A stretch of DNA of 20,195 nt from a virus: the IMG/VR virus record IMGVR_UViG_3300018080_000697, positions 1 through 20,195 of that record; one strand, 5' to 3'. Within the stretch, counting starts at the first letter, position 1, and the number at the start of each line of letters is the position of its first letter. Shown here in pieces: positions 2,693 through 17,952 of the stretch. The notes under the pieces were generated by a model that worked only from the letters and a program-made list of their open reading frames with translations, searched no databases and was not told where the DNA came from. The position numbers and the translations under genes are program-made.

Positions 2693-2800
2693 ACGCGGAT
2701 GGAACAATGACCATTGAATATTGAGTATTTAAAAGAAATTTGCCTAATTAAATATTCAATATTCAATAAACAATCTTCAATTTTAAGGAGGATTTGACCC
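2693..2800 (+). promoter_or_regulatory. AT-rich leader of the capsid gene with 20-bp inverted repeat made of TTGAATA heptamers
   Basis: This 108-bp gap is strikingly AT-rich compared with its flanks. Bases 2713-2732 and 2748-2767 form an inverted repeat of 20 bp with one mismatch and a 15-nt loop. Both arms are built from TTGAATA-type 7-bp units, and the array continues to ~2784. No T-tract follows the stem, so it does not look like an intrinsic terminator. AAGGAGG at 2785-2791 provides the capsid ribosome binding site. The hairpin might protect or process the highly expressed capsid mRNA; that is inference. The same word recurs at 12128-12155. Confidence 0.7.
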
Positions 2801-3802
2801 ATGCTGCCGACTCCCAAAAGCGCACATATTGACGCGGCTTTGAGCAACATCAGTATCGCGTTTAAAAACCAGAATTTCATTGCGGATCGCGTGTTTCAGA
2901 CCGTGCCGGTCAACAAGCAGAGCGATTATTTTTACCAATTCCTCAAGGGCGCCTGGTTCCGTCTCGATGCGGGCGTGAGAGGCCCGGGCGCACAGGCCAG
3001 GACCAGCGGATACCCGATCACCAGCACCACCTATACCTGCATCGAGTACGCCCTCAAGCATCAGATCCCGATCGAACTGATCAACAATGCGGACGAGGTG
3101 CTCCGGCCGGTCACCACGGGGATCAACTTCGTGACCAACGCGATCCAGCTCAAAAAAGAGAAGATCGTGAGCGACCTGGTCACCACGGCGGGCAACTGGA
3201 CATCATCCAACGATGCCGAGGGCGGCTGGGCGGCGGGTGCATCCAATACCTTCATCGAAGATATGTTGACCGCGATGGAGACGGTCCGGAAGTTGATCGG
3301 CGTCAAGCCCAACTGCCTGCTCATGGATTCCAAGACCCTCAATGAGCTCAAGCAGGAATCGACCCTTCTGGACAAGATCAAATACACCGGGACCCAGGGA
3401 AAACCCGCTGACGTGACCGCGCAGACCCTGGCGGCCCTGTTTGAGCTGGACGAGGTGCTGATCGGTCAGGCCATCTACTCCAGCGACGAGGAAACCGTGG
3501 CCGGGACTGAATTTACGGCCGTGGACCTGTGGGAGACCACGGCCACCAAGGGGAGCGCGTTTCTCTACTACCGGCCGCCCACGCCAGGGGTAGAGGTCCC
3601 GGCTGCCGGATACCTCTTCAACTGGAAGGGGGATCAGGGGCAGGAAAGCCTCAAGGTGCCCACGGGCGGGTCGTATCGCTCGGTCCGAAAGTGGTGGGAC
3701 GACGACACCAAGAGCTATTTTGTCGAGGCCAATGAGTGCTTTGACGCCAAGGTGGTCGGTGCCGACGCCGGGTATCTCTTTTATGACACCATTAGCACCT
3801 AA
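2801..3802 (+). CDS. Major capsid protein
   Basis: This 333-residue protein has the features of an HK97-fold phage capsid protein. The N-terminus, LPTPKSAHIDAALSNISIAF followed by FIADRVFQTVPVNKQSDYFY, is typical of major coat proteins. A long spine helix with LKKEKIVSDLV follows, then the axial-domain segment NCLLMDSKTLNELK and the late YKxTQGxPADVT and DEVLIGQAIY segments. It follows a decoration gene and precedes head-completion genes. The sequence is not close to the Mu T capsid, although the neighbours are Mu-like, so the capsid may come from another phage lineage. The start has a clear AAGGAGG ribosome binding site. Confidence 0.9.
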   Translation: MLPTPKSAHIDAALSNISIAFKNQNFIADRVFQTVPVNKQSDYFYQFLKGAWFRLDAGVRGPGAQARTSGYPITSTTYTCIEYALKHQIPIELINNADEVLRPVTTGINFVTNAIQLKKEKIVSDLVTTAGNWTSSNDAEGGWAAGASNTFIEDMLTAMETVRKLIGVKPNCLLMDSKTLNELKQESTLLDKIKYTGTQGKPADVTAQTLAALFELDEVLIGQAIYSSDEETVAGTEFTAVDLWETTATKGSAFLYYRPPTPGVEVPAAGYLFNWKGDQGQESLKVPTGGSYRSVRKWWDDDTKSYFVEANECFDAKVVGADAGYLFYDTIST

Positions 3803-3813
3803 AGGGGGTTTCC

Positions 3814-4005
3814 GTGAGGATCCAGTATGAAGGCCCGAGGGCGTCCATTCGAGTGACGCCCTACGGCGCGCATAAAAAAGGCGCGGTCAAGGACTACCCG
3901 GACGACTTTGGCGAGGCATTGATCAGGACCAGTAAACGCCAGAAATTCAGCCGGGTGGACGCCAAGTTATCCGCAACTAAACCACGAAAGGCGAAGAAGA
4001 AATAG
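3814..4005 (+). CDS. Small basic head-region protein of unknown function
   Basis: This 63-residue protein starts at a GTG preceded by a G-rich ribosome binding site (AAAGGGGG) just after the capsid stop. It contains VTPYGAHKKGAVKDYPDDFG and ends in a Lys/Arg-rich tail (KPRKAKKK). Small proteins at this place, between capsid and connector genes, are common in Mu-like heads, but I do not recognise a function. Its stop is immediately followed by the ATG of the next gene, so the two are coupled. Confidence 0.65.
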   Translation: MRIQYEGPRASIRVTPYGAHKKGAVKDYPDDFGEALIRTSKRQKFSRVDAKLSATKPRKAKKK

Positions 4006-4458
4006 ATGGCCTACAGCGTACAAGCCGACCTGTTGATGCAGATCAGCGAGACCGAGCTGATCGAGCTGACGGACGATGCCGGGGCGGGCGCGGTCGATGA
4101 CGATGTGGTCGACCGCGCTATCGCCGATGCAGACGAAGAGATCGACGCCTATGTGGGGGTCAAATATTCGCTGCCGTTTGACAGCACCCCCGGGCTGATC
4201 CGTCGCATGTCCGTGGATCTGGCCGTCTGCAACCTCTATGCCAGGCGGGACGACACCATCCCGGCGTACAGGAAAGAGCGGTGCGATGCCCACCGGAAGT
4301 TGCTGGAGAAGATCGCCCTGGGCCAGCTCAAGCTGGATGCCGCTGATCCGGATCAGGACTCGGATTTCGGGGTTAAGACCACGTCGGACAAGGACGATCG
4401 GATCTTCTCCATCGGTAGAGGTTCGGACAACTCCTCCGGGAGTTTGGATAATTACTGA
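4006..4458 (+). CDS. gp36-like head-tail connector (DUF1320)
   Basis: This 150-residue protein matches the Mu gp36 / DUF1320 family. An N-terminal helix with LLMQISETELIELTDD leads into a VVDRAIADADEEIDAYVG segment, then YSLPFDSTPGLIRRMSVDLA and a YARR-x-YRKERCDAHRKLL helix. The family forms part of the connector between head and tail. The C-terminal ~30 residues are acidic and Ser-rich, probably disordered. The start directly abuts the preceding stop. A GCGCANN repeat array begins immediately after its own stop codon. Confidence 0.85.
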   Translation: MAYSVQADLLMQISETELIELTDDAGAGAVDDDVVDRAIADADEEIDAYVGVKYSLPFDSTPGLIRRMSVDLAVCNLYARRDDTIPAYRKERCDAHRKLLEKIALGQLKLDAADPDQDSDFGVKTTSDKDDRIFSIGRGSDNSSGSLDNY

Positions 4459-4520
4459 CGCAAAGCGCAGAGCGCATGGCGCATAGCGTTCGCCATGCCC
4501 TTTGCGCCTTGCCCCATGCG
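4459..4520 (+). repeat. GCGCANN heptamer element, two opposed arms
   Basis: The element begins at the base after the gp36 stop. The left arm (4459-4488) is a run of GCGCANN heptamers (GA, TG, TA endings). After a 2-bp centre, the right arm (4491-4520) is the same heptamer phase on the opposite strand. Aligning one arm with the reverse complement of the other keeps the 7-bp register throughout. It occupies the leader of the next gene, leaving no recognisable ribosome binding site there. Confidence 0.8.
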
Positions 4521-4523
4521 ATT

Positions 4524-4991
4524 ATGGCCGGAGCAGCCTTTCAAATTACGATACACCAGGCCAGGGTGCAGGCCCTGTTCAAGCGGCTGGCCCAGCGCAT
4601 GGACGACATGACCCCGGTCATGGCCGAGATCGGCGAGATCGTGACCGAGTCGGTCCAGCGCAATTTCGAGGAGCACCGGAGCCCTGAGGGCGAAAAATGG
4701 AAAGAGCTGTCGCCTGCCACGGTCATCAGCAAGGTCTTGCGGGGCCGCAACACGGACGACATCTTGATTGACAAAACCACGCTCATCAAGTCGATTCACC
4801 CCAGGGCCTCAAAAGACCGGGTCCGGGTGGGTACGGATGTCATTTACGCGGCCATCCATCAGTTCGGGGGCGAGACCGGCAAGGGACACGCAGTGGATAT
4901 GCCGGCCAGGCCCTTTTTGGGTATCCGGGCCGAGGACTGGCCCGAAATCGAGGACACGATTAACGATTGGCTTACAGCGGCTACACCATAG
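4524..4991 (+). CDS. Mu G-like virion morphogenesis protein (Phage_tail_S)
   Basis: This 155-residue protein fits the Mu G / phage virion morphogenesis family. It has an N-terminal helix with VQALFKRLAQRMDDMTPVMA, IGEIVTESVQRNFEEHRSPE-GxKWKELSPAT, then LIKSIHPRASKDRVRVGTD, YAAIHQFGGE and PARPFLGI. These proteins complete the head-tail junction. The frame is open further upstream to an ATG at 4476, but that ATG lies inside the heptamer element. The start at 4524 just past the element gives the normal family N-terminus. Neither start has a good ribosome binding site, so translation may depend on the upstream gene. Confidence 0.8.
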   Translation: MAGAAFQITIHQARVQALFKRLAQRMDDMTPVMAEIGEIVTESVQRNFEEHRSPEGEKWKELSPATVISKVLRGRNTDDILIDKTTLIKSIHPRASKDRVRVGTDVIYAAIHQFGGETGKGHAVDMPARPFLGIRAEDWPEIEDTINDWLTAATP

Positions 4992-5845
4992 AGCAGATCG
5001 AGGACGCCATTGTGGCGGCGCTTGAAGCGGATGGCACCTTGAGCGGGTATGTCAAGACGTTTGACCGGCTCCCCTGGGAGCGGTCCGACGAGGTGGAGAA
5101 GCTGATCCGACGCTACCCGGCTCTCTTGGTGACCTATGCCGGAGGCGATGACGATAACGCGGTCAATGCCGTGTGTGATCACCGGGGCCGATTTTCCGTG
5201 TGGTGTTGCGCCAAGAACCTCCGGTCGCCCTCCGCAGCCGCCAGGGGCCCTGTATCCGGTGAAAAGGGCGTCTATGATCTGATCCACGACACCCTGTCGT
5301 GTCTGAATTTCGTGGATCTCGGGACCAGCATCCTGTCCTGTACCGGCGCCAAGGTGCAACCCCTGGCCGCCTCTCCCAGGGTGACCGTTTTTGCGTGTGA
5401 ATTTGAGGTGGTCTGGCGGCGATATTATACCGACGGAAACATCACCTGGCAAGTGCCGGATATCCTGTCCGTGGATGATGCGGCCGTGAGCGGGACCCCC
5501 AAGGTGCTCCGTTTTTGGCATTGGGGTCAGTGGTATTATACGAAAGCCTATCCCGTCATATCGGCGGAGCTCAACGGGTCCGGAGACGATGCGGGCCCCA
5601 GCTGTTACACCCTGGAGGATACCGCCCTTTCCGGGAGCCCCGCGTTGATCGCATTTGTCAGCGGCGGATCGACCTATTACGTGAAGGGGTATCCCATAGC
5701 GGCCGGTCTGAACCATTGCTGCGGAGACATAAACCTGGCCATTACCCTGTATGGGGATGCGGCCATGAGCGGGACCCCGAGGGTGCTGAAAATGGTCATT
5801 GACGGCACGCCCTTTTATACCAAGGCCTATCCAACCAAAGCATAA
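4967..5845 (+). CDS. Mu gp37-like tail terminator with triple-repeat C-terminal extension
   Basis: This 292-residue protein probably starts at the TTG at 4967, overlapping the previous gene by 25 bp (GAGGAC upstream). The first ~155 residues resemble the Mu gp37 (DUF1834) tail terminator: IEQIEDAIVAALEADGTLSG, YPALLVTYAGGDDDN, GRFSVWCCAKNLRS and GVYDLIHDTLSCLNF. The rest is an extension of three ~46-residue repeats beginning near residues 168, 215 and 261. Each is built around D-A-x-SGTPKV, then G-x-W/P-YY-x-KAYP. The same three repeats form a stand-alone protein at 17953-18420. Tail terminators normally lack such an extension, so it is probably displayed at the neck as a ring. Its function is unknown. 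Confidence 0.75.
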   Translation: MAYSGYTIEQIEDAIVAALEADGTLSGYVKTFDRLPWERSDEVEKLIRRYPALLVTYAGGDDDNAVNAVCDHRGRFSVWCCAKNLRSPSAAARGPVSGEKGVYDLIHDTLSCLNFVDLGTSILSCTGAKVQPLAASPRVTVFACEFEVVWRRYYTDGNITWQVPDILSVDDAAVSGTPKVLRFWHWGQWYYTKAYPVISAELNGSGDDAGPSCYTLEDTALSGSPALIAFVSGGSTYYVKGYPIAAGLNHCCGDINLAITLYGDAAMSGTPRVLKMVIDGTPFYTKAYPTKA

Positions 5846-5860
5846 GGAGGAGATAAACCC

Positions 5861-6781
5861 ATGCTGATACAAAAATCACAAGTCGCCTGCGAGATCGAGG
5901 CTGTGGAAGGGACGGCGGAGACCTTGGTCGCCGCAGATGCGTTTTTGTGCTTCAACCCGAAGTTTACCCCGTCCATCGAGGCCCATGAGCGCAACCCGGT
6001 ACGGTCCAACCTGTCTCCGTACCCGTCGGCAATGGGCCGCAGACAGGCCACCTTGGAATTTGATGTGGAGCTGGTCGGAACATCCGGCGCAGGCGATGCC
6101 ATCCACTATTCAGACGCCCTCCAGGGGTGCGGGGTTTCGGAGACCCTGTCGGCCAGCACGTCCGCCACCTATAAGCCGGACTCCAGCAGCCCGCCCAGCG
6201 TGACCATCGCGCTGTACATGGACGGTAAATGTTACAAGCTCTGGGGCGCGCGAGGCACGGCCAGGCTCGATTTGGAAGCGGGCAAACCGGGCATGATCCA
6301 TATGATCTTCACGGGGGCGGATTTCTCGGAATCCGACGCCGCGCTTTTGAGCGGTGTGAGCTACAATGATATCATGCCGCCCGCGTTTTTGAGCGCCAGT
6401 CTGACCATAGACTCTTATGCCGCCAACGTGGGCAAGGTGTCCCTGGACCTGGGCAACACCGTGACGCTCCGGGAGGATGCCAGCGAGGCGAGCGGTCATG
6501 AGAGCGCGGTCATTACCGAGCGAAAGCCCACGCTAAGCTTTGATCCGGAAAATGTCCTGGTCGCCAGCGAAGATTTCCTGGGCAACTGGCGGTCTGGCAG
6601 TGAAATGGCCTTTTCCATGAGCATCGGCTCCGACGCCGGGAACACCATCGGGATCACTGCGCCTAAGATACAATACCAGGACGTCGCCATGAACGACCGA
6701 AAAGGATGGAGCATTTACGATATTTCAGGCCTCTGTGTGGGGGACAGCGGCGACGACGAGTGGCAGGTTCAGATAACCTGA
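5861..6781 (+). CDS. Phage tail tube protein
   Basis: This 306-residue, beta-rich, acidic protein follows the tail terminator and precedes the tail chaperones, the standard place of the tail tube gene. Recognisable segments are the opening QKSQVACEIEAVEGTAETL, SNLSPYPSAMGRRQATLEFD, a central KLWGARGTARLDLEAGKPG segment and VITERKPTLSFDPENVL. The repeated beta-hairpin pattern suggests two tube-type domains. No contractile sheath gene accompanies it, so the tail is probably non-contractile. GGAGGAG lies just upstream of the ATG. A short GATTTCA heptamer array starts at its stop codon. Confidence 0.75.
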   Translation: MLIQKSQVACEIEAVEGTAETLVAADAFLCFNPKFTPSIEAHERNPVRSNLSPYPSAMGRRQATLEFDVELVGTSGAGDAIHYSDALQGCGVSETLSASTSATYKPDSSSPPSVTIALYMDGKCYKLWGARGTARLDLEAGKPGMIHMIFTGADFSESDAALLSGVSYNDIMPPAFLSASLTIDSYAANVGKVSLDLGNTVTLREDASEASGHESAVITERKPTLSFDPENVLVASEDFLGNWRSGSEMAFSMSIGSDAGNTIGITAPKIQYQDVAMNDRKGWSIYDISGLCVGDSGDDEWQVQIT

Positions 6782-6800
6782 TTTCAGATTTCAGATTGAC
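6780..6800 (+). repeat. GATTTCA heptamer array at a stop codon
   Basis: Three units, GATTTCA, GATTTCA and GATTGAC, start within the tail tube TGA stop codon and fill the gap up to the GGAGG of the next gene. It is the shortest heptamer array in the window, with its own word. Confidence 0.6.
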
Positions 6801-6811
6801 GTGGAGGACCT

Positions 6812-7087: not shown

Positions 7088-7401
7088 CCGCCCATGACAA
7101 GCTCTACGACTGCCGGGCCTGCCGTGTTGAGAAAATGGATGGCGCCCGATTTTGCGAGCAGGATGCGCCCTTTCCGCTGTTTGAAATTGACAGGAAACCG
7201 TTTTTCAGGTGCCCGGTCCAGGAGATCACCGGACAGAGTCGGGAGGCCTTGAGTCTGTACGTTTTTTATCAGCGCGGGCATCTGCCCACGGCAGGCGGCA
7301 TCATGGACCAGCCCAACAAGATGATGGATCAGATTAGGATCATTGAAAACGTGGTGGAGGAAGTGCGCAGAGAGCGCAGAGCGCAGAGCGCAAAGAGGTA
7401 A
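6812..7401 (+). CDS. Tail assembly chaperone, -1 frameshift fusion (gpGT-like)
   Basis: Slippage at A AAA AAC (7060-7066) moves ribosomes from the 6812 frame into the -1 frame, which is open without interruption from 7066 to the TAA at 7399-7401. The fusion would be 196 residues: 85 shared, then 111 new. The new part starts LRWAANLAAHDKLYDCRAC and contains a Cys cluster (CRAC-x-CE, then FRCPVQEITGQSREALSLYV). This is the analogue of lambda gpGT, which recruits tube subunits to the tape measure protein. The last ~12 residues (RRERRAQSAKR) are encoded by a GCGCAGA heptamer array and are not expected in the family. Confidence 0.8.
7060..7095 (+). promoter_or_regulatory. Programmed -1 ribosomal frameshift signal
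   Basis: The heptamer A AAA AAC (7060-7066) is in the correct X XXY YYZ phase of the 6812 frame (codons GCA-AAA-AAC). After a 4-nt spacer comes a perfect 9-bp stem, ATGGGCGGC (7071-7079) with GCCGCCCAT (7087-7095), closed by a 7-nt loop. The zero-frame stop lies within this stem-loop and the -1 frame stays open for 111 codons. All three components expected of tail-chaperone frameshifting are present. Confidence 0.85.
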
Positions 7402-7437
7402 GCGTTCGCCATGCTCTATGCGCCATGCGCTTAGCGA
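7365..7437 (+). repeat. GCGCANN heptamer element, two opposed arms
   Basis: The left arm (7365-7404) repeats GCGCAGA several times and spans the end of the frameshifted chaperone and its stop codon. The right arm (from 7405) starts TTCGCCATGC and contains TATGCGCCATGCGC. That is the exact reverse complement of the unit pair GCGCATGGCGCATA found in the element at 4459. The central AGCGTTCGCCATGC is also shared with that element. It fills the gap before the tape measure start. Confidence 0.8.
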
Positions 7438-7443
7438 GATATC

Positions 7444-10400
7444 ATGCCGGACAACAAAGTCGAAATCATCATCAGCGCCAAGGACATGGCCTCCGGGGTC
7501 TTTCGGGATGTTCAAAAGGACATGCAGACCCTGGCAAAGAAGACCGTGAGCCAGGTGGACGCCATCAAGTCGCGGGTCCTGGGGCTCCAGGGCGCGCTCG
7601 TGGGCCTGGCCGGGGGGTACGGGCTCAAGCGGCTGGCCGAGAGCTCGCTCGATGTGGCCAGCTCCTTTGAGCAGATGGAAATCAAGCTGGATGTCATGAC
7701 CCGGGGAAAGGGCCCCGAGACCCTGGACCGGATCAACCAGTGGGCGCTCGATATGCCGGTCAACACCCGCGAGGCCGTGGACACCTTCACCTTGATGCAG
7801 GCGATGGGTTTGGACCCCACCATCGAAAAGATGGAGGTCCTGGTGGACGTGTCCAGCATCTTCGGCGACGACGCCATGCCGAGGGTGGCCCGTGCCTTGG
7901 GCCAGATGCAGACCCTGGGAAAACTCAGCGCCGAGGAGCTGAACCAGCTGGCCGAGGCCGGGATCAATGCGCGGAAATACCTCACCGAAGCCTTTGGCAT
8001 GACCGTGGAGGAGCTGCAACGGTCCAAGGTCTCCATTGACCAGATCGTGGACGCCATCTGGCGGGGCCTGGACGCCGAGTACTCGGGGGCCGCCAAAAAG
8101 GCCCAGAACACCTGGCGCGGCATGGTGACCACCTTCAAGAGCTATTTCGAGGAGCTCCAGCGGGAGGTCATGGCGGCAGGGGTGTTTGATGAGCTCAAGG
8201 ACCAGCTCGGCAGCATCAACGCGGAGATGGCCTCGTGGATCCAGACCAATGAGACGCTGATCCAGCAGAAGGTGCCAGAGTATATCGCCCAAGCCAAGGC
8301 GGCCCTCCAGGGCGTCTGGGACGTGATCTCCTATGATCCGGCCATTATCGAGTACGGCCTTATCGGCCTGGCCCTGGGGGGCAAGAAGGGTGCTTTTTTG
8401 GCGGGGGGGATGGCCCACCTTACGACTTGGGCTGAGACTTTTGGTAAGGCAATGGGCCTGGTCGCTTCAGGGCACCTGGAGTTCTCCCAGGTCGCCCAGG
8501 CCAACTTCAAGGAGCTCCAGGCCCTGGTGAACCAGTTTGACACGGACCCGGTCCGGTCCGAGATGGCCCAGACCGTGGCCGAACTGGAAAACCAGGTGCA
8601 GGCCATGCAGGAGAAGGTCTATGGCGGGGACCCGGCCGAGCTGATCCCGTTCACCGCTGTGACCGAGGACGCGGAAAAGGAACTGGCGGCCCTGGAAGCC
8701 AAGCTGGCCGAGGCCAGGGCCAGGCTGCGGAATTACGCCGAATCGAGCGAGCTTCAGGCCGTCATGGAGGCCCAGACCCGGATCATGGAGGAGGCGGTCC
8801 GGACGACCACCACCACCGACACATCGGACACCACGACCAACAGCACCCGCAACGAATTTATAAACCTCCAGCAAAGCCTCCATGTGGAGAGCGAAAAGAT
8901 TGAAAAAGAGCACCGGGCGTTCCTGACCGAGCTCCGACAGGCGAGTCACGAAAAGGACCTGCTGCTCCTTCAGGAGGCGATGGACGCCGAGACCCGGGCC
9001 ATCGAGGAGGGGCTGGCCCAACAGGCCGCAGCCCGGGAAGCGGCCGAGGCCGATATGTCGACCATCCGGCAACAGGCCCTGGCCAAGGAGCTGGAGCTCC
9101 TGGACCAGGCCATGCGCGAGGAGACCCGGTACATCGAGGAGGCCCTGGAGGGGACCAAAGACAAGAGCGAAGACCTGTTCGCGGACATGGACCAGGCCAT
9201 GCAGGGGTGGGCGGCCTCCTGGTCCGGTAGCCTCAATGACATGCTCTGGGGTGCGGACATGACCTTTTCCGATATTCTGGAATCATTTGCAAAAATGATC
9301 ACCCAGATGCTCCTCCAGAAGGCCGTGATCGAGCCGCTTTTCGAGGAGGGCAGCGGTTTGCTCGGTGGGCTTTTTGATGTGATCGGCGGGCTTTTAAGCG
9401 GGGGCAGCGCCCAGGGCAACGTGTTTGACCAGGGCGAGATGGTGCCCTTTGGCAAAGGCGGAGCGTTTGAAACTCGGAACGCGGAACGTGGAACGCGGAT
9501 TGTGCCGTATGCCAATGGCGGAGCTTTTGAAACGCGGAACTCAAAACTCGGAACTCGGATTGTGCCGTATGCGATGGGGGGTATTGTGGACCGGCCGACG
9601 CTGTTCCCGATGGCCACGGGCGTGGGGCTCATGGGTGAGGCCGGGCCGGAGGCGATCCTGCCGCTTACGCGGATGCCGGACGGGGATCTGGGGGTGCGGG
9701 CGCAAAGCGCAGAGCGCATGGCGCATGGAGATCCGACCGATCTGGCAGATCCGACCGATCGAAAAGCGAGAGCAACCACGCAGAGCGAATCCTACATCCG
9801 GGAGGTGTTTGAAAGCGTCAATCGGCTGGTGGAGGAGACGGAAAAGGAGAACATCGAACGCTCAACGTCCAACATCGAATTTTTAATGAATACGGTGGAG
9901 GCCTCCGAGGCCACCCAAATTCAACATCTCATATCCAGCATTCAGCATTCAGCCCCCCTAACGCCTAACGCCTCAGGCCTTGCGCCTCTCTTTGACATGC
10001 CAGAGGTACCGGCAATGGCCGAAGAGACGCGGCGGATCCTGGAGACCGTGAACCGGGAGTCGCAAGGCGCAGAGCGCATGGCGCATAGCGAGTTTTTTGT
10101 GCGGGAGGTGTTTGAGGGGATTAACCGGACGGTCCAGGCCTCCGAGGCCACCCACATCCAGGATTTGGTATCCAGCATCTATCAACCAACAGCTCATATC
10201 GAATCCCTAACGAATACGGTGAGTCGGGAGACGCTTGGCGCTATGCCCTATGCGCTTAGCGAAAAAACACGGACCACGGACCACGGACAACCCGTAACCA
10301 TCCACCTGACCATCAACGCCCTGGACGCCCGGAGCGTGGTGGAGCTTATGGAACAAAACCCCGAGGCCGTGGTGGGGCCGCTGTCAAACGAACTCCAGGC

Positions 10401-10446
10401 CGGAAACCGAACCCTGACGCGACTCCTCAAAGTCGCCACGGTGTAA
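7444..10446 (+). CDS. Tape measure protein with repeat-derived C-terminal insertion
   Basis: This is the longest tail gene before the fibres (1000 residues) and it sets tail length. Residues ~70-270 are the tape-measure N-terminal domain, with SSFEQMEIKLDVMTRG, DAMPRVARALGQMQTLGKLS, EELNQLAEAGINARKYL and KNTWRGM-like motifs. Residues ~470-600 are a long charged helix with an internal duplication (LLQEAMDAETRAIEE / LLDQAMREETRYIEE). The lambda H-like C-terminus is recognisable at SFAKMITQMLLQKAVIEPLF, GNVFDQGEMVPFGKGGAF and LMGEAGPEAILPLTRMPDGD. It resumes at PVTIHLTINALDARSV. Between these pieces (about residues 676-715 and 750-948) lie stretches encoded by heptamer and nonamer arrays plus a duplicated REVFESVNRLV module. 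No good ribosome binding site precedes the ATG; the leader is a repeat element. Confidence 0.9.
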   Translation: MPDNKVEIIISAKDMASGVFRDVQKDMQTLAKKTVSQVDAIKSRVLGLQGALVGLAGGYGLKRLAESSLDVASSFEQMEIKLDVMTRGKGPETLDRINQWALDMPVNTREAVDTFTLMQAMGLDPTIEKMEVLVDVSSIFGDDAMPRVARALGQMQTLGKLSAEELNQLAEAGINARKYLTEAFGMTVEELQRSKVSIDQIVDAIWRGLDAEYSGAAKKAQNTWRGMVTTFKSYFEELQREVMAAGVFDELKDQLGSINAEMASWIQTNETLIQQKVPEYIAQAKAALQGVWDVISYDPAIIEYGLIGLALGGKKGAFLAGGMAHLTTWAETFGKAMGLVASGHLEFSQVAQANFKELQALVNQFDTDPVRSEMAQTVAELENQVQAMQEKVYGGDPAELIPFTAVTEDAEKELAALEAKLAEARARLRNYAESSELQAVMEAQTRIMEEAVRTTTTTDTSDTTTNSTRNEFINLQQSLHVESEKIEKEHRAFLTELRQASHEKDLLLLQEAMDAETRAIEEGLAQQAAAREAAEADMSTIRQQALAKELELLDQAMREETRYIEEALEGTKDKSEDLFADMDQAMQGWAASWSGSLNDMLWGADMTFSDILESFAKMITQMLLQKAVIEPLFEEGSGLLGGLFDVIGGLLSGGSAQGNVFDQGEMVPFGKGGAFETRNAERGTRIVPYANGGAFETRNSKLGTRIVPYAMGGIVDRPTLFPMATGVGLMGEAGPEAILPLTRMPDGDLGVRAQSAERMAHGDPTDLADPTDRKARATTQSESYIREVFESVNRLVEETEKENIERSTSNIEFLMNTVEASEATQIQHLISSIQHSAPLTPNASGLAPLFDMPEVPAMAEETRRILETVNRESQGAERMAHSEFFVREVFEGINRTVQASEATHIQDLVSSIYQPTAHIESLTNTVSRETLGAMPYALSEKTRTTDHGQPVTIHLTINALDARSVVELMEQNPEAVVGPLSNELQAGNRTLTRLLKVATV
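9457..9576 (+). repeat. 60-bp tandem duplication containing AAC(G/T)CGG heptamers
   Basis: Two 60-bp units (9457-9516, 9517-9576) encode GGAFETRNAERGTRIVPYAN and GGAFETRNSKLGTRIVPYAM. Inside each are four phased heptamers: AACTCGG, AACGCGG, AACGTGG, AACGCGG in the first, and AACGCGG, AACTCAA, AACTCGG, AACTCGG in the second. The duplicated block splits the conserved Gly-rich region of the tape measure C-terminus. Confidence 0.85.
9700..9761 (+). repeat. GCGCANN heptamers followed by GATC nonamers, coding
   Basis: A single-arm GCGCANN array (9700-9728) encodes AQSAERMAHG. It runs directly into a GATC nonamer array (9729-9761: GATCCGACC, GATCTGGCA, GATCCGACC, GATCG) encoding DPTDLADPTD. Two of the window's dispersed repeat families are therefore placed end to end inside one gene. 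Confidence 0.75.
9850..9984 (+). repeat. Three heptamer words in succession, coding
   Basis: Four AACNNNN units occupy 9850-9877 (AACATCG, AACGCTC, AACGTCC, AACATCG). Five ATTCAGC-type units occupy 9919-9953 (ATTCAAC, ATCTCAT, ATCCAGC, ATTCAGC, ATTCAGC). Four CCTAACG-type units occupy 9957-9984 (CCTAACG, CCTAACG, CCTCAGG, CCTTGCG). Each keeps a strict 7-bp phase although the words are unrelated. All are within the tape measure insertion. Confidence 0.7.
10061..10090 (+). repeat. GCGCANN heptamer array, left arm only, coding
   Basis: Units following CGCAAG read GCGCAGA, GCGCATG, GCGCATA and GCG, encoding SQGAERMAHS in the tape measure protein. The matching opposite-strand arm lies about 145 bp further on at 10231-10261. 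The two arms bracket the second copy of the REVFE module. Confidence 0.75.
10231..10295 (+). repeat. GCGCANN right arm followed by CACGGAC heptamers, coding
   Basis: Bases 10231-10261 carry the opposite-strand GCGCANN arm (CTATGCCCTATGCGCTTAGCG). Bases 10268-10288 are three perfect CACGGAC units, followed by AACCCGT (10289-10295), which matches the word used at 12211. They encode LGAMPYALSEK and RTTDHGQP just before the tape measure sequence resumes. Confidence 0.75.
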
Positions 10447-10480
10447 CCGTTGAACCGTGAACCGTGAACCCCTGAACCTC
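10444..10480 (+). repeat. GAACCGT heptamer array starting at the tape measure stop codon
   Basis: The array begins at the TAA stop codon (TAACCGT) and continues GAACCGT (10452-10458), GAACCGT (10459-10465) and GAACCCC. It fills the whole gap before the DUF2460 gene, leaving no visible ribosome binding site. Confidence 0.75.
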
Positions 10481-10486
10481 TAAATT

Positions 10487-11074
10487 ATGGCTTTATATCC
10501 TGAAAACAGCACGATCCCTTTTAAGAACCCGATCCAGATGAGGCTTCGGTTCAAGACCTTGACCAATGCCTTTGACGACCTGGGGGAGGAACGGCGGAAG
10601 CGGAAGTTTTTGTATCCCCGCCGGGATATCACCCTGGCCTATGAGTGGCTGTCCGTGTCCGACGCCCAGACCCTGTGGGAGTTTTACGTGGCCCGAAGCG
10701 GGCCCTATGAGGCGTTTAATTTCTTTTTGCCATCGCCCGACACCTATACGGGCGAGTACGTGGGGTCGGGGGACGGGTCCACCACGGTCATGAATTTGCC
10801 AAGCAAGAGCGGGAGTAGCACCACGGTCTATCTCGATGGGGTGGAAAAGACCGGCGGGGGCACGGATTACACCTTCGGCTCTGGCACGGGTGAGGATGGG
10901 GCCGACAAGATCACCTGGGTGGCGGCCCCGGCAGCGGCCCAGCGGGTGACCTATGACTTCACCGGGTACCTGAAGGTGCGGTCCCGGTTCAAGGAGGATT
11001 ACTTGGATTTTGAAACCTTTTACGGCCTGCTCTGCTCGATGGGCGTGCCATTACAGGGGCTTCTGAATGCGTAG
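10487..11074 (+). CDS. Distal tail protein, DUF2460 family (GTA gp12-like)
   Basis: This 195-residue protein has the two halves of DUF2460: an N-terminal segment with RRKRKFLYPRRDITLAYEWL and DAQTLWEFYVARSGPYEAFN-FFLP, and a C-terminal beta region ending FKEDYLDFETFYGLLCSMGV. In siphophages and in Rhodobacter gene transfer agents this family forms the first ring below the tail tube. The middle GSGDGSTTVMNLPSKSG-x-TVYLDGVEKTGGGTDYTF stretch is a common insertion. A repeat array rather than a ribosome binding site precedes the ATG. The stop overlaps the next start by 8 bp. Confidence 0.8.
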   Translation: MALYPENSTIPFKNPIQMRLRFKTLTNAFDDLGEERRKRKFLYPRRDITLAYEWLSVSDAQTLWEFYVARSGPYEAFNFFLPSPDTYTGEYVGSGDGSTTVMNLPSKSGSSTTVYLDGVEKTGGGTDYTFGSGTGEDGADKITWVAAPAAAQRVTYDFTGYLKVRSRFKEDYLDFETFYGLLCSMGVPLQGLLNA

Positions 11075-12125
11075 CATCGACGCGGCTATCATCACCCAGC
11101 TCCAGGCGATGGAACTGACCCCGGTCCACCTCATCGATATGACCATCGACGGGGCCCATTATCGGTACACGGACTGCGACGTGCCGATCCGAAAGCCTAA
11201 TTTTGCGTATAATTTCCGCAATTCCCAGGACGGGTGGACCGGGTCCAATATTACGGTGACCCAGAACAGCGATTCGGTGCTCCTGACCACCAACAACCCT
11301 GACCCCCAGTGGTACCTCCAACCCACGGATTTTTCGGGCGCCGATAACCCAGTGGTCCAGGTTCGAGTCAAACGGACTGCCGGCACAGGCTGGGATGGTC
11401 AGACATTTTACCGCACATCCGGGCACACTTATTCCAGTTCCTACAGAAACCGGATTTACCCTGCCCCGGACGGCATTGACGACGGGTATGTGGTGATGAC
11501 CTACAACATGGGGGATCTGCTATACGGCGGCGACGACTGGCTTACCAACGACATCACTGGTTTAAGATTTGACTTCGGGTCAAATGCGCCCGACACCTTT
11601 GAGGTGGACTGGATCCAGATCGGAGGGCCGCTTTTCAGCCCGCTTCCCTTTTCAATGGACCCAATCCAGTACTCCTCGGTTCGGATCGTTGACCAGGCCC
11701 GGATCAAGGTGGACAACCTGGACAGCGTCATGACCGCCCTCTTTGTGGGGGGCACGCCCGAAGGCTCGGAGGCGGTCATCGAGCTGGGCCTGATCGACGC
11801 GGACGGGTGCCTGGCCGGCGGCGAGACCGTGACGCTCTTCGAGGGGACCATCGACGCCTGGGTCCTGGACGAGGGGACCGTCAAGATCACCCTGGCCTCG
11901 CTCATGGCCCGGTGGAGCCAGCGGACCTTGAGCACGCACAGCGCCTCGTGCCGGTGGAAGGATTTCAAGGGGACTGAATGCGGGTACTCCGGTTCCGAGG
12001 ACTGGTGCGACCGGACGTACACCCGCTGCGAGGCCCTTAACAACCAGGCCCACTTCGGGGGCTTCCGGTGGCTGCCCAGCTTGATGGACAAGGAAATCTG
12101 GTGGGGGAGGAGTAGGAGCGTTTGA
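11067..12125 (+). CDS. Tail hub protein, DUF2163/BR0599 family, with jelly-roll insertion
   Basis: This 352-residue protein opens with AIITQLQAMELTPVHLIDM-TIDG and ends with the diagnostic BR0599 C-terminus: CRWKDFKGTECGYSG, a CDRTYTRCEA segment, and FGGFRWLPSLMDKEIWWG. It corresponds to the gp13 hub of gene transfer agents and the lambda L position. The Cys pattern suggests an iron-sulfur or disulfide site, as in lambda L. Residues ~45-190 (NFRNSQDGWTGSNITVTQNS to FEVDWIQIGG) are an insertion resembling a carbohydrate-binding jelly-roll domain, not needed for the hub itself. The gene overlaps its upstream neighbour, so it is coupled to it. A TTGAATA array begins at its stop. Confidence 0.8.
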   Translation: MRSIDAAIITQLQAMELTPVHLIDMTIDGAHYRYTDCDVPIRKPNFAYNFRNSQDGWTGSNITVTQNSDSVLLTTNNPDPQWYLQPTDFSGADNPVVQVRVKRTAGTGWDGQTFYRTSGHTYSSSYRNRIYPAPDGIDDGYVVMTYNMGDLLYGGDDWLTNDITGLRFDFGSNAPDTFEVDWIQIGGPLFSPLPFSMDPIQYSSVRIVDQARIKVDNLDSVMTALFVGGTPEGSEAVIELGLIDADGCLAGGETVTLFEGTIDAWVLDEGTVKITLASLMARWSQRTLSTHSASCRWKDFKGTECGYSGSEDWCDRTYTRCEALNNQAHFGGFRWLPSLMDKEIWWGRSRSV

Positions 12126-12160
12126 AATTGAATATTGAATATTGAAGATTGAATATTTTT
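12122..12160 (+). repeat. TTGAATA heptamer array at a stop codon
   Basis: Four phased units follow the TGA stop of the hub gene: TTGAATA, TTGAATA, TTGAAGA and TTGAATA (12128-12155), preceded by TTGAAA over the stop codon itself. It is the same word as the arms of the inverted repeat upstream of the capsid gene. Confidence 0.8.
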
Positions 12161-12170
12161 CGTAACACCG

Positions 12171-12197
12171 TCATTCCCGCGAAGGCGGGAATCCAGG
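12171..12197 (+). repeat. dRS3-like palindromic repeat
   Basis: ATTCCC (12173-12178), an 8-bp centre and GGGAAT (12187-12192) give the ATTCCC-N8-GGGAAT pattern of the Neisseria dRS3 repeat. The pairing extends to an 8-bp stem (ATTCCCGC/GCGGGAAT) with a 4-nt loop. The wider TCATTCCC...GGGAATCCAGG form is a widespread chromosomal repeat in Proteobacteria. Its presence inside a phage gene cluster argues for residence in a chromosome. Confidence 0.75.
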
Positions 12198-12203
12198 AGC
12201 GTG

Positions 12204-12231
12204 AAACCCGCAACCCGCAACCCGTAACCCG
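12204..12231 (+). repeat. CAACCCG heptamer array
   Basis: Four phased units, AAACCCG, CAACCCG, CAACCCG and TAACCCG, lie between the dRS3-like palindrome and the ribosome binding site of the NlpC/P60 gene. Together with the TTGAATA array and the palindrome they fill the whole 116-bp gap. Confidence 0.75.
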
Positions 12232-12241
12232 GAGCACAAAA

Positions 12242-12739
12242 GTGAACCCCAAACCCAAAAAACCCCTGTTCACCGTCTTCAAGGCCTACATCGGGGCGCC
12301 GTACGGCCTCGGGGGGTGGTCCAGGGAGACCGGATTTGACTGCGCGTCGCTGGTGTGCTCGGTCATGCGGGACCTGTACGGGGTGGCGGTGCCGGAGACG
12401 TTTGAGGGGGAGACCCGGGAGAGCTACGCCAGGCTGTGGCAGGACAACCCGGCCCTGGCCACCCGGCTTTTGATCCGGTTCGCCGTTAGCCTGGGCCAGA
12501 GCATTCCGGTCCACCAGGCCTTTGCCGGGGATATCCTCGTGATGACGCATGGCGCAGAGCGCAGAGCGCAGAGCGGACACTATGCGCCATGCGCTATGCC
12601 CTATGCGTTTTTCCTCGGAATCCACGCGGGCAACGATACATTTATGGGCGTGTTTGAAGGCCGGGGCGTGGCCCTGGCCCGGTTCGAGCAGGCCCAAATT
12701 CGAAAGGTGATCCGATGCCGATACCCGCAGCAGTCATAG
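12242..12739 (+). CDS. NlpC/P60 family cell-wall peptidase of the tail tip (GTA gp14-like)
   Basis: This 165-residue protein starts at a GTG with GGAG 7 nt upstream. An upstream TTG at 12149 would read through the repeats and produce a false N-terminus. The NlpC/P60 core shows YIGAPYGLGGWSRETGFDCA, with the catalytic Cys in FDCASLV (codon 12341-12343). It continues with AFAGDILVM and the catalytic His in FLGIHAGND (codon 12623-12625). It hydrolyses peptidoglycan during tail penetration, as lambda K does. Odd feature: a GCGCANN element (12546-12607) inserts a peptide close to HGAERRAQSGHYAPCAMPYA between GDILVM and the His strand, where relatives have a short turn. The stop overlaps the next gene by 25 bp. 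Confidence 0.85.
   Translation: MNPKPKKPLFTVFKAYIGAPYGLGGWSRETGFDCASLVCSVMRDLYGVAVPETFEGETRESYARLWQDNPALATRLLIRFAVSLGQSIPVHQAFAGDILVMTHGAERRAQSGHYAPCAMPYAFFLGIHAGNDTFMGVFEGRGVALARFEQAQIRKVIRCRYPQQS
12546..12607 (+). repeat. GCGCANN heptamer element, two opposed arms, inside NlpC/P60 gene
   Basis: The left arm is CGCATG followed by three GCGCAGA units (12546-12575). A short centre follows, then the opposite-strand arm TATGCGCCATGCGC (12581-12594) and further units to 12607. The element preserves the reading frame and shares the exact 14-bp right-arm word with the element at 7365. Confidence 0.85.
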
Positions 12740-15700
12740 CGGCCGCCAAGATCATCGCGTTCGTCGCGTCCGTGGCGTTTGCGGGCGCCAGGCTGCTGGG
12801 CATGACCTCGGACAATACCCGCAACCCCGCAGACCCGAGGGATCCGGGGCTTAAGACCAACACCCGGTCCACCCAGGAGCTGATTAAGGTCCTGTACGGG
12901 CAGCTCAAAATTGGCGGGAACGATGTTTACATGGCGGCAGGCGGCACGGACAATAAGGAGCTCTGGATTGTCCAGGCTTTGGGCGAGGGGGAATGCGACA
13001 GCATCGCCCAGGTGGAGAGCGTGGACCAGGTGTGGTTAGGGGACAAGCTTGTCTCGGAATTCGGATCCAATGCCTCATACTGGTTCCACGGGGGCACGTC
13101 CGGCCAGAGCGTGGACAGCAACCTGGCGGCCGCGTTTCCCGAATGGACCGACCCGCTTCCGTATACCTGTTACATGGTCTACAAGCTGGTGTTTCATCGG
13201 GACCTGTTTCAGTCATTGCCACAACGGACCGTGCTCCTCAAGGGCCGCAAGCTCTATGATTTCCGCGACGCCTCCACGGCCTGGTCCGACAACCCGGTCC
13301 TTTGCCTCTATGACTATCTGACCAATACCCGATACGGCATGGGGATCAGTGCCTCGGCCATCGACACCACCTCGTGGACCGCGGCGGCCAATTATTGCGA
13401 CACCCAGGGGTGGACCCTCAATATGCGCCTGATGGCCGACACCTCGGCCGTCAATATCATCGACGATATGTGCCGGCATTTCCGGGGAACCCTGGTCTGG
13501 TGGGATGGAAAATATTACCTGAGATACGCGGACCTCAATTACGAGTCCTCGGTCATGACCCTCACGGACGCCCATATCGCCCGGGACCCCAAGGGGAAGG
13601 CCCGGATCTCCATGAGCGCGCCGTCGTCCTTCGGCCGCAATGATGGGCTTCGGGTCAAGTTTGTGGACCCGGACAACGACTATGCCACGGACGATGTGGT
13701 GGTGGGCGACACCGTGGGCACCATCGGCGAGTTGTCTTTGATGGGGTGCACGGACCGGGAGATGGCCTGCAACCTGGCCGCCTATTACCTCGAGATGGAG
13801 CAGGGGCAGATCCCGCGCATTATCAGCGGCGTGTTTCGGGACGACGCCTTGCAGCTGGAGCCCCACGATATCGTGACCTTTACGAGCCAGGCCCTGGCCC
13901 TGGAGAACGAGACCATGCGGGTCCTCGACGCCCATGTGGAGGCCGACGGGCTGATCAGCCTCACCCTGCGGGGCGAGGCCCTGACGCTTTATGACGACGA
14001 CTACAATGTGGGGGATACCGATATTTACAATTGCACCCTGCCGGACCCCACCGGGCCGCCGCCCTCGGTCCAGAATGTGGCCGTGAGCGAGGAGACCTAT
14101 GATTACCGGCTCAGGACCTTTACCCGGCTCAATGTGTCGTTTGACGCCCCGGCCGATTACCCCTGGTTTGATTTCTGCGAGATCTGGGTGAGCCACGACA
14201 ACAGCACCTGGGAGCATCAGTTCAACACCACCACGGATTTCTGCATCGACAACGTGGAGGACGGCGAGGACTATTACATCCGGATTCGGGCCGTGAGCAT
14301 TCACGGGGTCAAGCAGGACACAGACGACGCCTATGTGACCCATTGGCTGGTGGGCGGGCGCTCCAATGCCCCCACATCGCTCTCCGCCCTTTACGCTGTG
14401 GTGAACGCCAACTGTGTGAATCTCTATGGGGACAAGGTATCGGACCCGGACGTGGAGCTTTATGAGTTCAGGCTGGGCACGGCGTGGGCCGGTTCCATTT
14501 TGTTGGGCGCGCTTCGGTCCCCAAACCTGTCGCTTTATGGCGTGAAGCCCGGAAGCCACACCTTCTGGGCCAACACCCTGGGCGCCAACGGAATCTATGG
14601 CGAGACGCCCCGGTCGGCCACCGTGTCGCTCCTGGCCCCGCCCGACGGGTGGACCGTGCAGAATACCGAGACCTGCGACTATGTGGTGACCCTGGAGGAT
14701 TTTACCGGGTACACGGAGGTGGATCCGGACGGGACCGTCACGGTGGCGGCCGATACCATTACCTTCACGGATTTTGACCGCAACGCCACGGCGTATGTGT
14801 ACAAGGACTTCGGGGCTGGGTATTTTTCGGGCGATTTTGTGCACCAGATGAAGCTGATCGTCTCTGATTTTGATTACACGAGCCGGGCCGCCGTGCACAT
14901 GCTGGCCAATACGGTGGACGAACTTTTCGGCATTCAGATGGGTAGCGGCGACGCCATTGGGGTGTATGTGGACGGCCCCAACGATACGAAATATGATCTG
15001 GTGCTTTTTGAAATAGACGGCGGGACCCTGTACACCTCCACGTATGAAAACCTGGGCAAGCTGGTGGATTTCCATCTGGTGATCGAGCGGGATGAAAGCG
15101 TGGGGTCTTACGGCCGGGTCACGTGCCATGTGTACGCCGATGAAACGCACACTTGGCTACTGGAAACCCTCACCCTGGATCTTCATTCCAGCAAAAAGGA
15201 CTTTCGGTATTTGTACGGGCTCTGCGCCTATGACACGGGCAGCTCCGCAGAGCTTTCAGGGACGGTGGAGGACCTCCTCCTGGACACAGACGGGGTCCAC
15301 CAGAACACCGAGCATGTCACCTATGCCTCGGACGATTATCTTACGTGCAGCCACGGGGTCACGGACTACTGGGACCTGACCGGCACCTTCACCTCCGAGG
15401 TGTACGACCTGGGGGCCTCGGGCCGGTACCTGGTCTATCTGGTGGCCGACATCGTCATGACCGGGGCCGGGACCACGTGGAACGACGTGGTGCCGTCGCC
15501 CCAGACCTGGGAGATGTTGCAGGTCAGCACCCGCAACTGGACCGATATCTTTCAATTGGACAACGGTTCGATTGTGGCCATCACCCTGAAGTACAAGGCC
15601 AACATCGGCGATGCCTGGAGCGAGGTGAACAAGATGGAGATTCTGAGCGGGATCGTCACGGGCCGGTATTTCCAGGTGGAGATCACCATCACCGACCCGA

Positions 15701-15753
15701 GCGAGAGCGTGAACGCTTTGGTGGAGAATTTTGAGTTGAAGTTTTGTCAGTAA
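12715..15753 (+). CDS. Large tail-tip / host-specificity protein (J- or GTA gp15-like) with FN3 and lectin-like domains
   Basis: This 1012-residue protein follows the hub and peptidase, the place of lambda J and GTA gp15. It opens with a hydrophobic stretch (PAAVIAAAKIIAFVASVAFA), common in this family. Residues ~50-430 are the tip body, with ELIKVLYGQLKIGGNDVYMA, DNPVLCLYDYLTNTRYGMGI, ADTSAVNIIDDMCRHFRGTL and DREMACNLAAYYLEMEQGQI. Residues ~448-535 look like a fibronectin type III domain (YYIRIRAVSIHG), and a second beta-sandwich covers ~550-640. Residues ~650-860 resemble a concanavalin-type lectin sandwich, followed by a final beta domain. The distal domains are probably the exposed, host-contacting part. 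Confidence 0.8.
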   Translation: MPIPAAVIAAAKIIAFVASVAFAGARLLGMTSDNTRNPADPRDPGLKTNTRSTQELIKVLYGQLKIGGNDVYMAAGGTDNKELWIVQALGEGECDSIAQVESVDQVWLGDKLVSEFGSNASYWFHGGTSGQSVDSNLAAAFPEWTDPLPYTCYMVYKLVFHRDLFQSLPQRTVLLKGRKLYDFRDASTAWSDNPVLCLYDYLTNTRYGMGISASAIDTTSWTAAANYCDTQGWTLNMRLMADTSAVNIIDDMCRHFRGTLVWWDGKYYLRYADLNYESSVMTLTDAHIARDPKGKARISMSAPSSFGRNDGLRVKFVDPDNDYATDDVVVGDTVGTIGELSLMGCTDREMACNLAAYYLEMEQGQIPRIISGVFRDDALQLEPHDIVTFTSQALALENETMRVLDAHVEADGLISLTLRGEALTLYDDDYNVGDTDIYNCTLPDPTGPPPSVQNVAVSEETYDYRLRTFTRLNVSFDAPADYPWFDFCEIWVSHDNSTWEHQFNTTTDFCIDNVEDGEDYYIRIRAVSIHGVKQDTDDAYVTHWLVGGRSNAPTSLSALYAVVNANCVNLYGDKVSDPDVELYEFRLGTAWAGSILLGALRSPNLSLYGVKPGSHTFWANTLGANGIYGETPRSATVSLLAPPDGWTVQNTETCDYVVTLEDFTGYTEVDPDGTVTVAADTITFTDFDRNATAYVYKDFGAGYFSGDFVHQMKLIVSDFDYTSRAAVHMLANTVDELFGIQMGSGDAIGVYVDGPNDTKYDLVLFEIDGGTLYTSTYENLGKLVDFHLVIERDESVGSYGRVTCHVYADETHTWLLETLTLDLHSSKKDFRYLYGLCAYDTGSSAELSGTVEDLLLDTDGVHQNTEHVTYASDDYLTCSHGVTDYWDLTGTFTSEVYDLGASGRYLVYLVADIVMTGAGTTWNDVVPSPQTWEMLQVSTRNWTDIFQLDNGSIVAITLKYKANIGDAWSEVNKMEILSGIVTGRYFQVEITITDPSESVNALVENFELKFCQ

Positions 15754-15767
15754 GATCGGACGGATCA
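15754..15767 (+). repeat. GATC nonamer repeat at a stop codon
   Basis: GATCGGACG followed by GATC begins at the base after the TAA of the large tip gene. The same TAA-GATCGGACGGATC junction recurs at the end of the next gene (16404-16419). Confidence 0.6.
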
Positions 15768-15782
15768 TAAAGGAAAAGAATC

Positions 15783-16406
15783 ATGAGCCAAACCTGGACA
15801 GACGACGTATACGCCTCAGGGCATGTGGCCGCCACCGACCTGGCCAACATGGAGAACAATTTTGCGGCCCTGAAGAGCCTCTTTTCGGGCACGGGCGCGC
15901 CGTCCTCGATGGCCGCGTGCCACCCCTGGTTCGACACCACAAAGCATGTGCTTAAGGTGAGGGACGACGGGGATTCGGCCTGGTTGGGGCTCATGCACGG
16001 GGACGTGAACCACAAGCTCTGGGTCTACCGGAACAGCGCGCTTTCTGGCTGGGCCGTGGACTCGGCCGTGACCGACAAGGTCCTGGCCGTCAAGGGCGGG
16101 AGTACCTACACCACGGGCGCGGCCACGGCCGGGACCTGGACCCTGAGCGGGTTGACCGCCAACCACAGCCACAGCCACAGCCACGCCATCACGGCGGACG
16201 GGCAGCATTACCATTCAAGCACCGTTTATGCGGGGGCGTTTGGCGACTTTTCAGGCAGCGGAGATTACCGAACCGACACCGATCTCGACCACGACCACGG
16301 GGCCGCCACAGGCACGGACGCCACGGCCACCAATGCCACCGTGGCCAGCGCCGGCACCTGGCGGCCTGCGGCGGCCGTGGGGACGCTGCAGTATCTGGAT
16401 CTCTAA
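15783..16406 (+). CDS. Tail fibre/spike protein with HxH metal-binding motif
   Basis: This 207-residue protein starts with WTDDVYASGHVAATDLANME and NNFAALKSLFSGTGAPS, a pattern seen at the base of short phage tail proteins. The centre carries NHSHSHSHAI, and further H-x-H pairs occur at HYHSS and DHDHG. In known phage fibre tips, such as T4 gp37, HxH pairs coordinate iron in a trimeric needle, so the protein is probably a trimeric fibre or spike. The C-terminus, WRPAAAVGTLQYLDL, is a common terminal signature of such fibres. AAAGGA provides the ribosome binding site; GATC nonamer repeats lie on both sides. Confidence 0.7.
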   Translation: MSQTWTDDVYASGHVAATDLANMENNFAALKSLFSGTGAPSSMAACHPWFDTTKHVLKVRDDGDSAWLGLMHGDVNHKLWVYRNSALSGWAVDSAVTDKVLAVKGGSTYTTGAATAGTWTLSGLTANHSHSHSHAITADGQHYHSSTVYAGAFGDFSGSGDYRTDTDLDHDHGAATGTDATATNATVASAGTWRPAAAVGTLQYLDL

Positions 16407-16437
16407 GATCGGACGGATCGGTCAGATCAGACGGATC
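16407..16437 (+). repeat. GATC nonamer array at a stop codon
   Basis: Units GATCGGACG, GATCGGTCA, GATCAGACG and GATC start at the base after the TAA stop and end just before the AAAGGAG ribosome binding site. Four GATC sites are spaced exactly 9 bp apart. Confidence 0.75.
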
Positions 16438-16451
16438 AAAGAAAGGAGTCT

Positions 16452-16814
16452 ATGAGCAAAAAACTGGAACAGACCATCCGGCGGATCGTGCAGGAAGAAC
16501 TCCATCAGGCCCTCCACCGGACCATCACCATTGAGCGGGGACCGAGGCAGCAGGGGGACTCAGAGCGGGTCGTGCGGGATGAGGAGTGGCACGTCCTCGA
16601 CTTTTTGGCCGCGTACCTCCCCAAGATCGAGGGGGCTCTCAGGGGCATGCAGGAAGACGTGGACCAGGCCAAGAACGAGGCGGTCATGAACACCAAAAAG
16701 CTCCAGGTGATCGGGGAGACGCTGTTGATTGCAGAGCGCAGAGCGCAGAGCGTAGAAAGAACGCGATGCGCCATGCCCCCCCATGCGCTCTGCGGCCCGG
16801 AGGGCACCCCATGA
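16452..16814 (+). CDS. Helical protein of unknown function with repeat-derived C-terminus
   Basis: This 120-residue protein is not recognised. It starts at an ATG after AAAGGAG and is mostly helical and charged: KLEQTIRRIVQEELHQALHR, then LDFLAAYLPKIEGALRGMQE and DVDQAKNEAVMNTKKLQVIG, probably a coiled coil. The last ~27 residues, from IAERRAQSVERTRCAMPPHA on, are encoded by a GCGCANN element, so the original C-terminus has been replaced or extended by the repeat. It overlaps the next gene by ATGA. Confidence 0.65.
   Translation: MSKKLEQTIRRIVQEELHQALHRTITIERGPRQQGDSERVVRDEEWHVLDFLAAYLPKIEGALRGMQEDVDQAKNEAVMNTKKLQVIGETLLIAERRAQSVERTRCAMPPHALCGPEGTP
16731..16794 (+). repeat. GCGCANN heptamer element, two opposed arms, at a gene end
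   Basis: The left arm is GCAGA followed by GCGCAGA units and a GCGTAGA variant. After the centre come GATGCGCCATGCCCC and ATGCGCTCTGCG on the opposite-strand phase. The terminal GCAGAGCGCA and TGCGCTCTGC are exact inverted repeats, so the whole 64-bp element can fold on itself. Confidence 0.8.
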
Positions 16815-17938: not shown

Positions 17939-17952
17939 ATGAGGGAGGCATT

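Follow-up and report, generated by a model that had tools for sequence, protein, structure and literature searches.

The stretch of DNA analysed here, hereafter the window, comprises the 20,195 bases of virus record IMGVR_UViG_3300018080_000697. It is a structural operon of a Mu-like siphophage, presumably temperate, with genes for a head maturation protease, a major head protein, a gpG-like neck protein, a tape measure, an NlpC/P60-like tail protein and a gpJ-like tail fibre. Along this operon lie tandem arrays of 7-bp units (heptads) in many words, several of them paired as the arms of hairpins. The window arrays are probably copies or partial copies of dispersed heptad palindromes of a host type that the phage has acquired and whose arms change by 7-bp steps.

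A first-pass annotation had described a system of 7-bp-period repeats in about ten unrelated words, and the arrays themselves are real. Runs of at least 10 bases identical at lag 7 numbered 11, against 0.07 expected from 30 local dinucleotide shuffles; at the other lags from 2 to 30, the same count gave 3 for period 14, a harmonic, and 0 to 1 for each remaining period. Tandem Repeats Finder recovered the same arrays, and 15 period-7 segments were found from 2694 to 16771 at a threshold of 60% identity over 28 bp. All the named words are present, although AACNNNN (9848-9892) is weak, with a lag-7 identity of 61%; GATTTCA, CCTAACG and ATTCAGC have low copy numbers (2.4-2.6). Beyond the metagenomic origin of the record, nothing speaks for chance or an assembly artefact, and we give that explanation almost no weight: the shuffle test refutes it, and the same structure recurs in other viral contigs and in bacteria, there both in a complete chromosome and across 10 congeneric genomes. 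About half of the arrays stand at gene junctions and the remainder within the tape-measure and P60 genes, as follows.

2694-2790, unstranded: inverted heptad hairpin TTGAATA/TATTCAA in the gap between hp2300 and the major head protein gene, just upstream of the ribosome-binding site (RBS); lag-7 identity 0.79, RNA fold z -5.0.
4449-4521, unstranded: hairpin GCGCANN/NNTGCGC at the start of the Mu gpG-like gene; fold z -4.4.
6780-6797, plus strand: GATTTCA, 2.6 copies, at a gene junction.
7352-7439, unstranded: hairpin GCGCAGA/TATGCGC between hp7135 and the tape-measure gene; fold z -2.4.
9460-9573, plus strand: two repeats of 60 bp, each containing an AAC(G/T)CGG heptad array, in the tape-measure gene ahead of its GGIVDRPTLFPMA motif.
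9689-9740, plus strand: four GCGCANN units (GCGCAAA GCGCAGA GCGCATG GCGCATG) in the tape-measure gene.
9848-9994, unstranded: degenerate heptads AACATCG, ATTCAAC, CAGCATT and CCTAACG in the C-terminal linker of the tape measure; lag-7 identity 0.61-0.71.
10041-10308, unstranded: GCGCANN arm (10061-10090), spacer of about 140 bp, inverted arm (10231-10261) and three CACGGAC units (10268-10288).
10436-10488, plus strand: GAACCGT/AACCGTG array at the junction of the tape-measure and DUF2460 genes.
12114-12168, plus strand: five TTGAATA units at the hp11067-P60 junction; lag-7 identity 0.82.
12186-12247, plus strand: four AACCCGC units directly after the palindrome ATTCCCGCGAAGGCGGGAAT.
12534-12619, unstranded: hairpin GCGCAGA/CTATGCG inside the NlpC/P60 gene; fold z -3.9.
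16716-16794, unstranded: hairpin GCAGAGC/ATGCGCY at the hp16452-hp16586 junction; fold z -2.6.

The palindrome ATTCCCGCGAAGGCGGGAAT, at 12166-12200 between the TTGAATA and AACCCGC arrays, resembles the dRS3/REP-like repeat known from Neisseria and other bacteria. A frame-keeping analogue with 9-bp units is seen at 9730-9760 and 16407-16437, as two short arrays whose words are related (GATCCGACC, GATCGGACG).

Within the tape-measure gene, homologues are shorter by at least 6 amino acids at 9460-9573. In its last 800 bp (9690-10480), lag-7 identity is 0.413 and the 3-bp coding rhythm is mostly gone, while the rest of the gene is normal; because of this, the stretch is one composite block, not several separate arrays. 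Several arrays do lie in open frames of the tape-measure and P60 genes, where they could mirror selected amino-acid repeats of tail proteins. This very improbable explanation was rejected, since lag 7 replaces the codon rhythm, which vanishes where lag 7 rises; moreover, 7 is not a multiple of 3, and identical words are found at noncoding junctions.

Period 7 thus dominates with many words, as the first-pass annotation had it, but the words are not all independent. GCGCANN has six sites, and at several of them it is paired with its inverse (GCGCANN ... NNTGCGC); TTGAATA forms the inverted pair at 2694-2790. The hairpins at 4449-4521 and 7352-7439 have the core AGCGTTCGCCATGC in common. The hairpins at 2694-2790, 4449-4521, 7352-7439, 12534-12619 and 16716-16794, whose arms are arrays, fold better than shuffles, with z values from -2.4 to -5.0, and the 5′ arm of the window hairpins is the purine-rich one. 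A search of the window against Rfam gave no match.

The view of the arrays as a property of the phage was not supported, the same anatomy being present in bacterial chromosomes. The array-rich genomes studied were G001 (CP070735.1), a complete deltaproteobacterial chromosome that is a metagenome-assembled genome (MAG); G002, an Acidobacteria MAG; and G003, a MAG titled Euryarchaeota, whose binning may be wrong. G001 was sampled as 20 evenly spaced, unselected 20-kb pieces (400 kb). Period 7 gave 48 arrays, against 0 to 7 for periods other than multiples of 7, so that period 7 dominates in this genome, which is not an identified host, as it does in the window. With crude gene calls, 13 of the 48 arrays fell in open reading frames, while 79% of the DNA is coding. 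Such a clear excess of 7-bp tandem units over other periods, in dispersed and mostly intergenic arrays, is what characterizes heptameric simple sequence repeats and the short tandemly repeated repetitive (STRR) sequences. G003 (L246-L265) also has many 8-bp arrays besides those of period 7 (AAGGCAGC words, 66 against 99), and 8-bp arrays are found at gene junctions of phage L020 too.

Arrays of three GCGCANN units are present in all 10 species of the G001 genus, and the reversed control gave none. When the gaps between three GCGCA were left free from 0 to 5, G001 and its congener G020 gave 41 and 60 matches, the same counts as with a fixed 2-nt gap, and all listed matches had a spacing of exactly 7 bp; in the control genome G200, the gaps were mixed. 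Matches to four GCGCANN units, among those listed, come from many phyla; many are single and may be due to chance in GC-rich genomes. The window words CACGGAC, TTGAATA, GAACCGT and AACCCGC recur in unrelated sources. Exact three-unit arrays of CACGGAC or TTGAATA occurred in one genome each of 148 from the G001 phylum, and single words are therefore patchy and give no identification of the host.

These observations bear on slippage. Local replication slippage alone, in which a polymerase with a preferred 7-nt slip expands any 7-mer at slip-prone spots, each site independently, would account for the strict 7-bp step and the many words. A proposal of this type is credited to Mrazek and colleagues where PMC4679880 and PMC4692102 cite them, and slippage of a heptanucleotide array is documented in the phage cargo gene neuO (PMC13001214). 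However, words are reused far above chance: the 48 G001 arrays have 30 distinct words, compared to a mean of 46.8 and a minimum of 43 after letter shuffling. Arrays also pair as polarized inverted repeats, with inverted mates for 23-67% of arrays versus 2-4% of random segments. These are convergent inverted pairs lying close together, as in the Xanthomonas type of repeat. Among paired arrays, the purine arm came first in 15 of 16 cases in G001, in all 58 cases in G003 and in 35 of 40 cases in viral contigs, the last having been chosen for GCGCA arrays.

Furthermore, the neighborhoods of the G001 arrays match one another. In one family, the element is a palindrome of about 150-180 bp with a nested build: GCGCANN forms the outer arms and GGTAAAC/GGTGAAC the inner ones, and there is a loop. 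With 40 candidates scored per genome, this family had matches in 10 of 10 species of the genus, at unrelated places, with 9-50 per genome (43 in G001, 50 in G020 and 9 in G018); in most of the species, the places number in the dozens. Many copies retain most of the length at 76-86% identity; for G001 element L341, this holds for most of its 181 bp, so that the copies are similar end to end, like those of miniature inverted-repeat transposable elements. Slippage alone fails for this family because its dispersed copies share nonrepeat loop sequence as well as two nested words; the word reuse in G001 does not fit slippage alone either. We therefore regard it as an unlikely sole cause. The first-pass annotation had suggested a mechanism that copies or slips in 7-bp steps; a real process favoring a 7-bp step holds up, but the idea of each word arising alone by slippage does not, given the word reuse, the polarized hairpins and the dispersed palindrome.

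Comparison of orthologous sites showed that the arrays are not conserved as sequence and that orthologues without them exist. With period 7 dominant in G001, both tests proposed against the first-pass annotation thus came out in its favor. In G001 and seven congeneric species, the genes flanking orthologous junctions align at 67-85% and the gaps measure 35-317 bp, with differing heptad words: GATTGCG in G001, a TGGAGTA-like word in G009, an AGTCAAA-like word in G021 and almost nothing in G020. Only part of the related phages carry arrays. The gap upstream of the head protein is 108 nt in the window, with its TTGAATA hairpin, versus about 32-38 nt in L003 and L004, and L005 has a GGGGTTA/AACCCNN hairpin at this site, followed by nearly the same RBS. 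At the hp16452-hp16586 junction, the GCAGAGC arms of the window correspond to AACCCTG heptads in L012 and to an almost gapless junction in L021, and the hp11067-P60 junction is tight in homologues from L018 and L021. Within the P60 gene, the GCGCAGA hairpin coincides exactly with 14 residues (42 nt, a multiple of both 7 and 3) that the window protein has in excess of its closest homologues. In another contig, L002 (3403-3405), hp2300 and the head protein are joined and, compared with the window, both gene ends are lost, possibly by deletion or misassembly.

One can envision that the hairpins serve the phage operon as regulatory RNA under selection, for example as terminators, mRNA stabilizers or translational control elements; regulatory roles have been suggested for the TAACTGA repeats (PMC4679880) and the Geobacter elements (PMC2700814). 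The strong folds (z -2.4 to -5.0) are consistent with this, as are the positions of several hairpins directly 5′ of ribosome-binding sites and the hairpin and RBS context kept upstream of the head protein in the window and L005 despite differing words. However, the close relatives L003, L004 and L021 do without hairpins at the same junctions, the same kind of element is also found within protein genes, and both the word and its presence turn over fast in bacteria. Regulatory function thus seems a doubtful explanation, less probable still than slippage.

Host-type palindromes carried by a phage fit these observations better. Because period, polarity, dispersal and word turnover match those in bacteria, we infer that the Mu-like operon carries heptad palindromes of host type, placed at the borders of genes and in loops that the proteins tolerate. 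GCGCA arms from the window reach 94% identity, over about 32 bp, to arms of the G001 element: positions 4459-4490 match an arm of element L330 at 94%, and 10231-10277, an arm plus flanking sequence, aligns with L330 over 47 bp at 72%. In this account, each element forms a hairpin, in some cases a nested one, whose 5′ side is a purine-rich heptad array and whose 3′ side is the pyrimidine-rich complement; the phage would have gained copies by transfer from a host, most plausibly during residence in the chromosome of an element-rich bacterium. Copying, by transposition or recombination, would spread the words, and new copies would settle mainly between genes or where the protein tolerates multiples of 21 bp. 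The arms may then gain, lose and mutate 7-bp units, with slippage keeping the period, so that the word at a given junction would be replaced within a genus.

Several results weigh against this account. The GCGCA arms of the window match bacterial elements only as arms, no full-length match of a window element having been found. Long direct arrays without inverted mates make G002 an exception. The two arms at one locus pair only slightly better than they do after block shuffling (z 1.2 in G003, z 0.5 at viral loci); the arms either diverge quickly or are not made by simple strand-switch copying, and simple mirror copying was set aside, since it did only weakly better than block shuffles. No enzyme was found for array movement. 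A Y1/RAYT transposase, as associated with repetitive extragenic palindromes and bacterial interspersed mosaic elements, was considered as the mover and rejected, as no association with arrays was found: array density near Y1_Tnp genes (0.12 per kb) equals background. A Y1_Tnp match is also absent in G020, the genome of the genus richest in GCGCA arrays, although MAGs may be incomplete. On the host side, no close homologue of the major head protein was found in 56 genomes of the G001 class, the single match being at 44%, and a genome-wide scan for DUF2460 gave no match. With that one homologue only, the G001 genus serves to illustrate the type of host that would suit and is not the identified host. 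Relatives of the tape measure were looked for in viral contigs, and none were found.

Two predicted proteins elsewhere in the window (4967-5842 and 17782-18420) have in common a repeated motif like ALSGTPxxxxxxxxGxxYYxKAYPT.

That leaves the relation to known systems. The cyanobacterial STRR sequences, named in the first-pass annotation as the closest analogue, are a fair one, and better ones exist in Xanthomonas and Geobacter metallireducens. The Xanthomonas GGGAATC repeats form 70-75 convergent pairs per genome (PMC4692102); they have a single G-rich, G-quadruplex-capable word (GGGAATC/GGGANTN) and are not found on plasmids, whereas the window has many words, no G runs and nested palindromes, and is phage-borne. 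GGG is absent from all of its 7-bp words, which thus lack G tracts, and none of the published words GGGGATT, GGGAATC and TAACTGA is an array word there. In the deltaproteobacterium G. metallireducens (PMC2700814), GGGACCG (49 copies) and MTYCTGA (16 sites) make up dispersed multicopy elements that have 4-5 heptamers in tandem and lie both inside genes and between them; they differ in their words and in being read as regulatory, and a phage operon was not reported. The STRR sequences and the TAACTGA repeats of Beggiatoaceae (PMC4679880) are likewise tandem intergenic heptamers, patchy across lineages and of unexplained origin, but TAACTGA is a direct repeat with almost no other such word beside it in its best-studied genome, in contrast to the polarized inverted pairs in many words seen here. 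A survey, as cited in PMC4679880, has heptanucleotides as the commonest repeat class in most genomes. Finally, neuO (PMC13001214) also has a 7-bp array on phage-borne DNA in which multiples of 3 units keep the frame; it is one pure AAGACTC array for phase variation, unlike the dispersed hairpins here. The window therefore differs from known heptamer repeats in its many words, its purine-first hairpins and its position within a phage operon.

A bolder idea, which we hold to be rather improbable, is that many bacterial lineages have dedicated machinery that builds or moves polarized, nested hairpins of 7-bp words and hands them on to temperate phages, the word at a site being replaced while the step and purine-first polarity stay fixed.

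Heptamer repeats have been the subject of single-genome reports for decades, with no agreement on their cause. Here, many words are joined into one anatomy of purine-first hairpins, nested arms and dispersed copies. Orthologous sites exchange words within a genus, and elements within phage genes lengthen proteins. Phages and congeneric genomes together offer a direct route to separating slippage from mobility.

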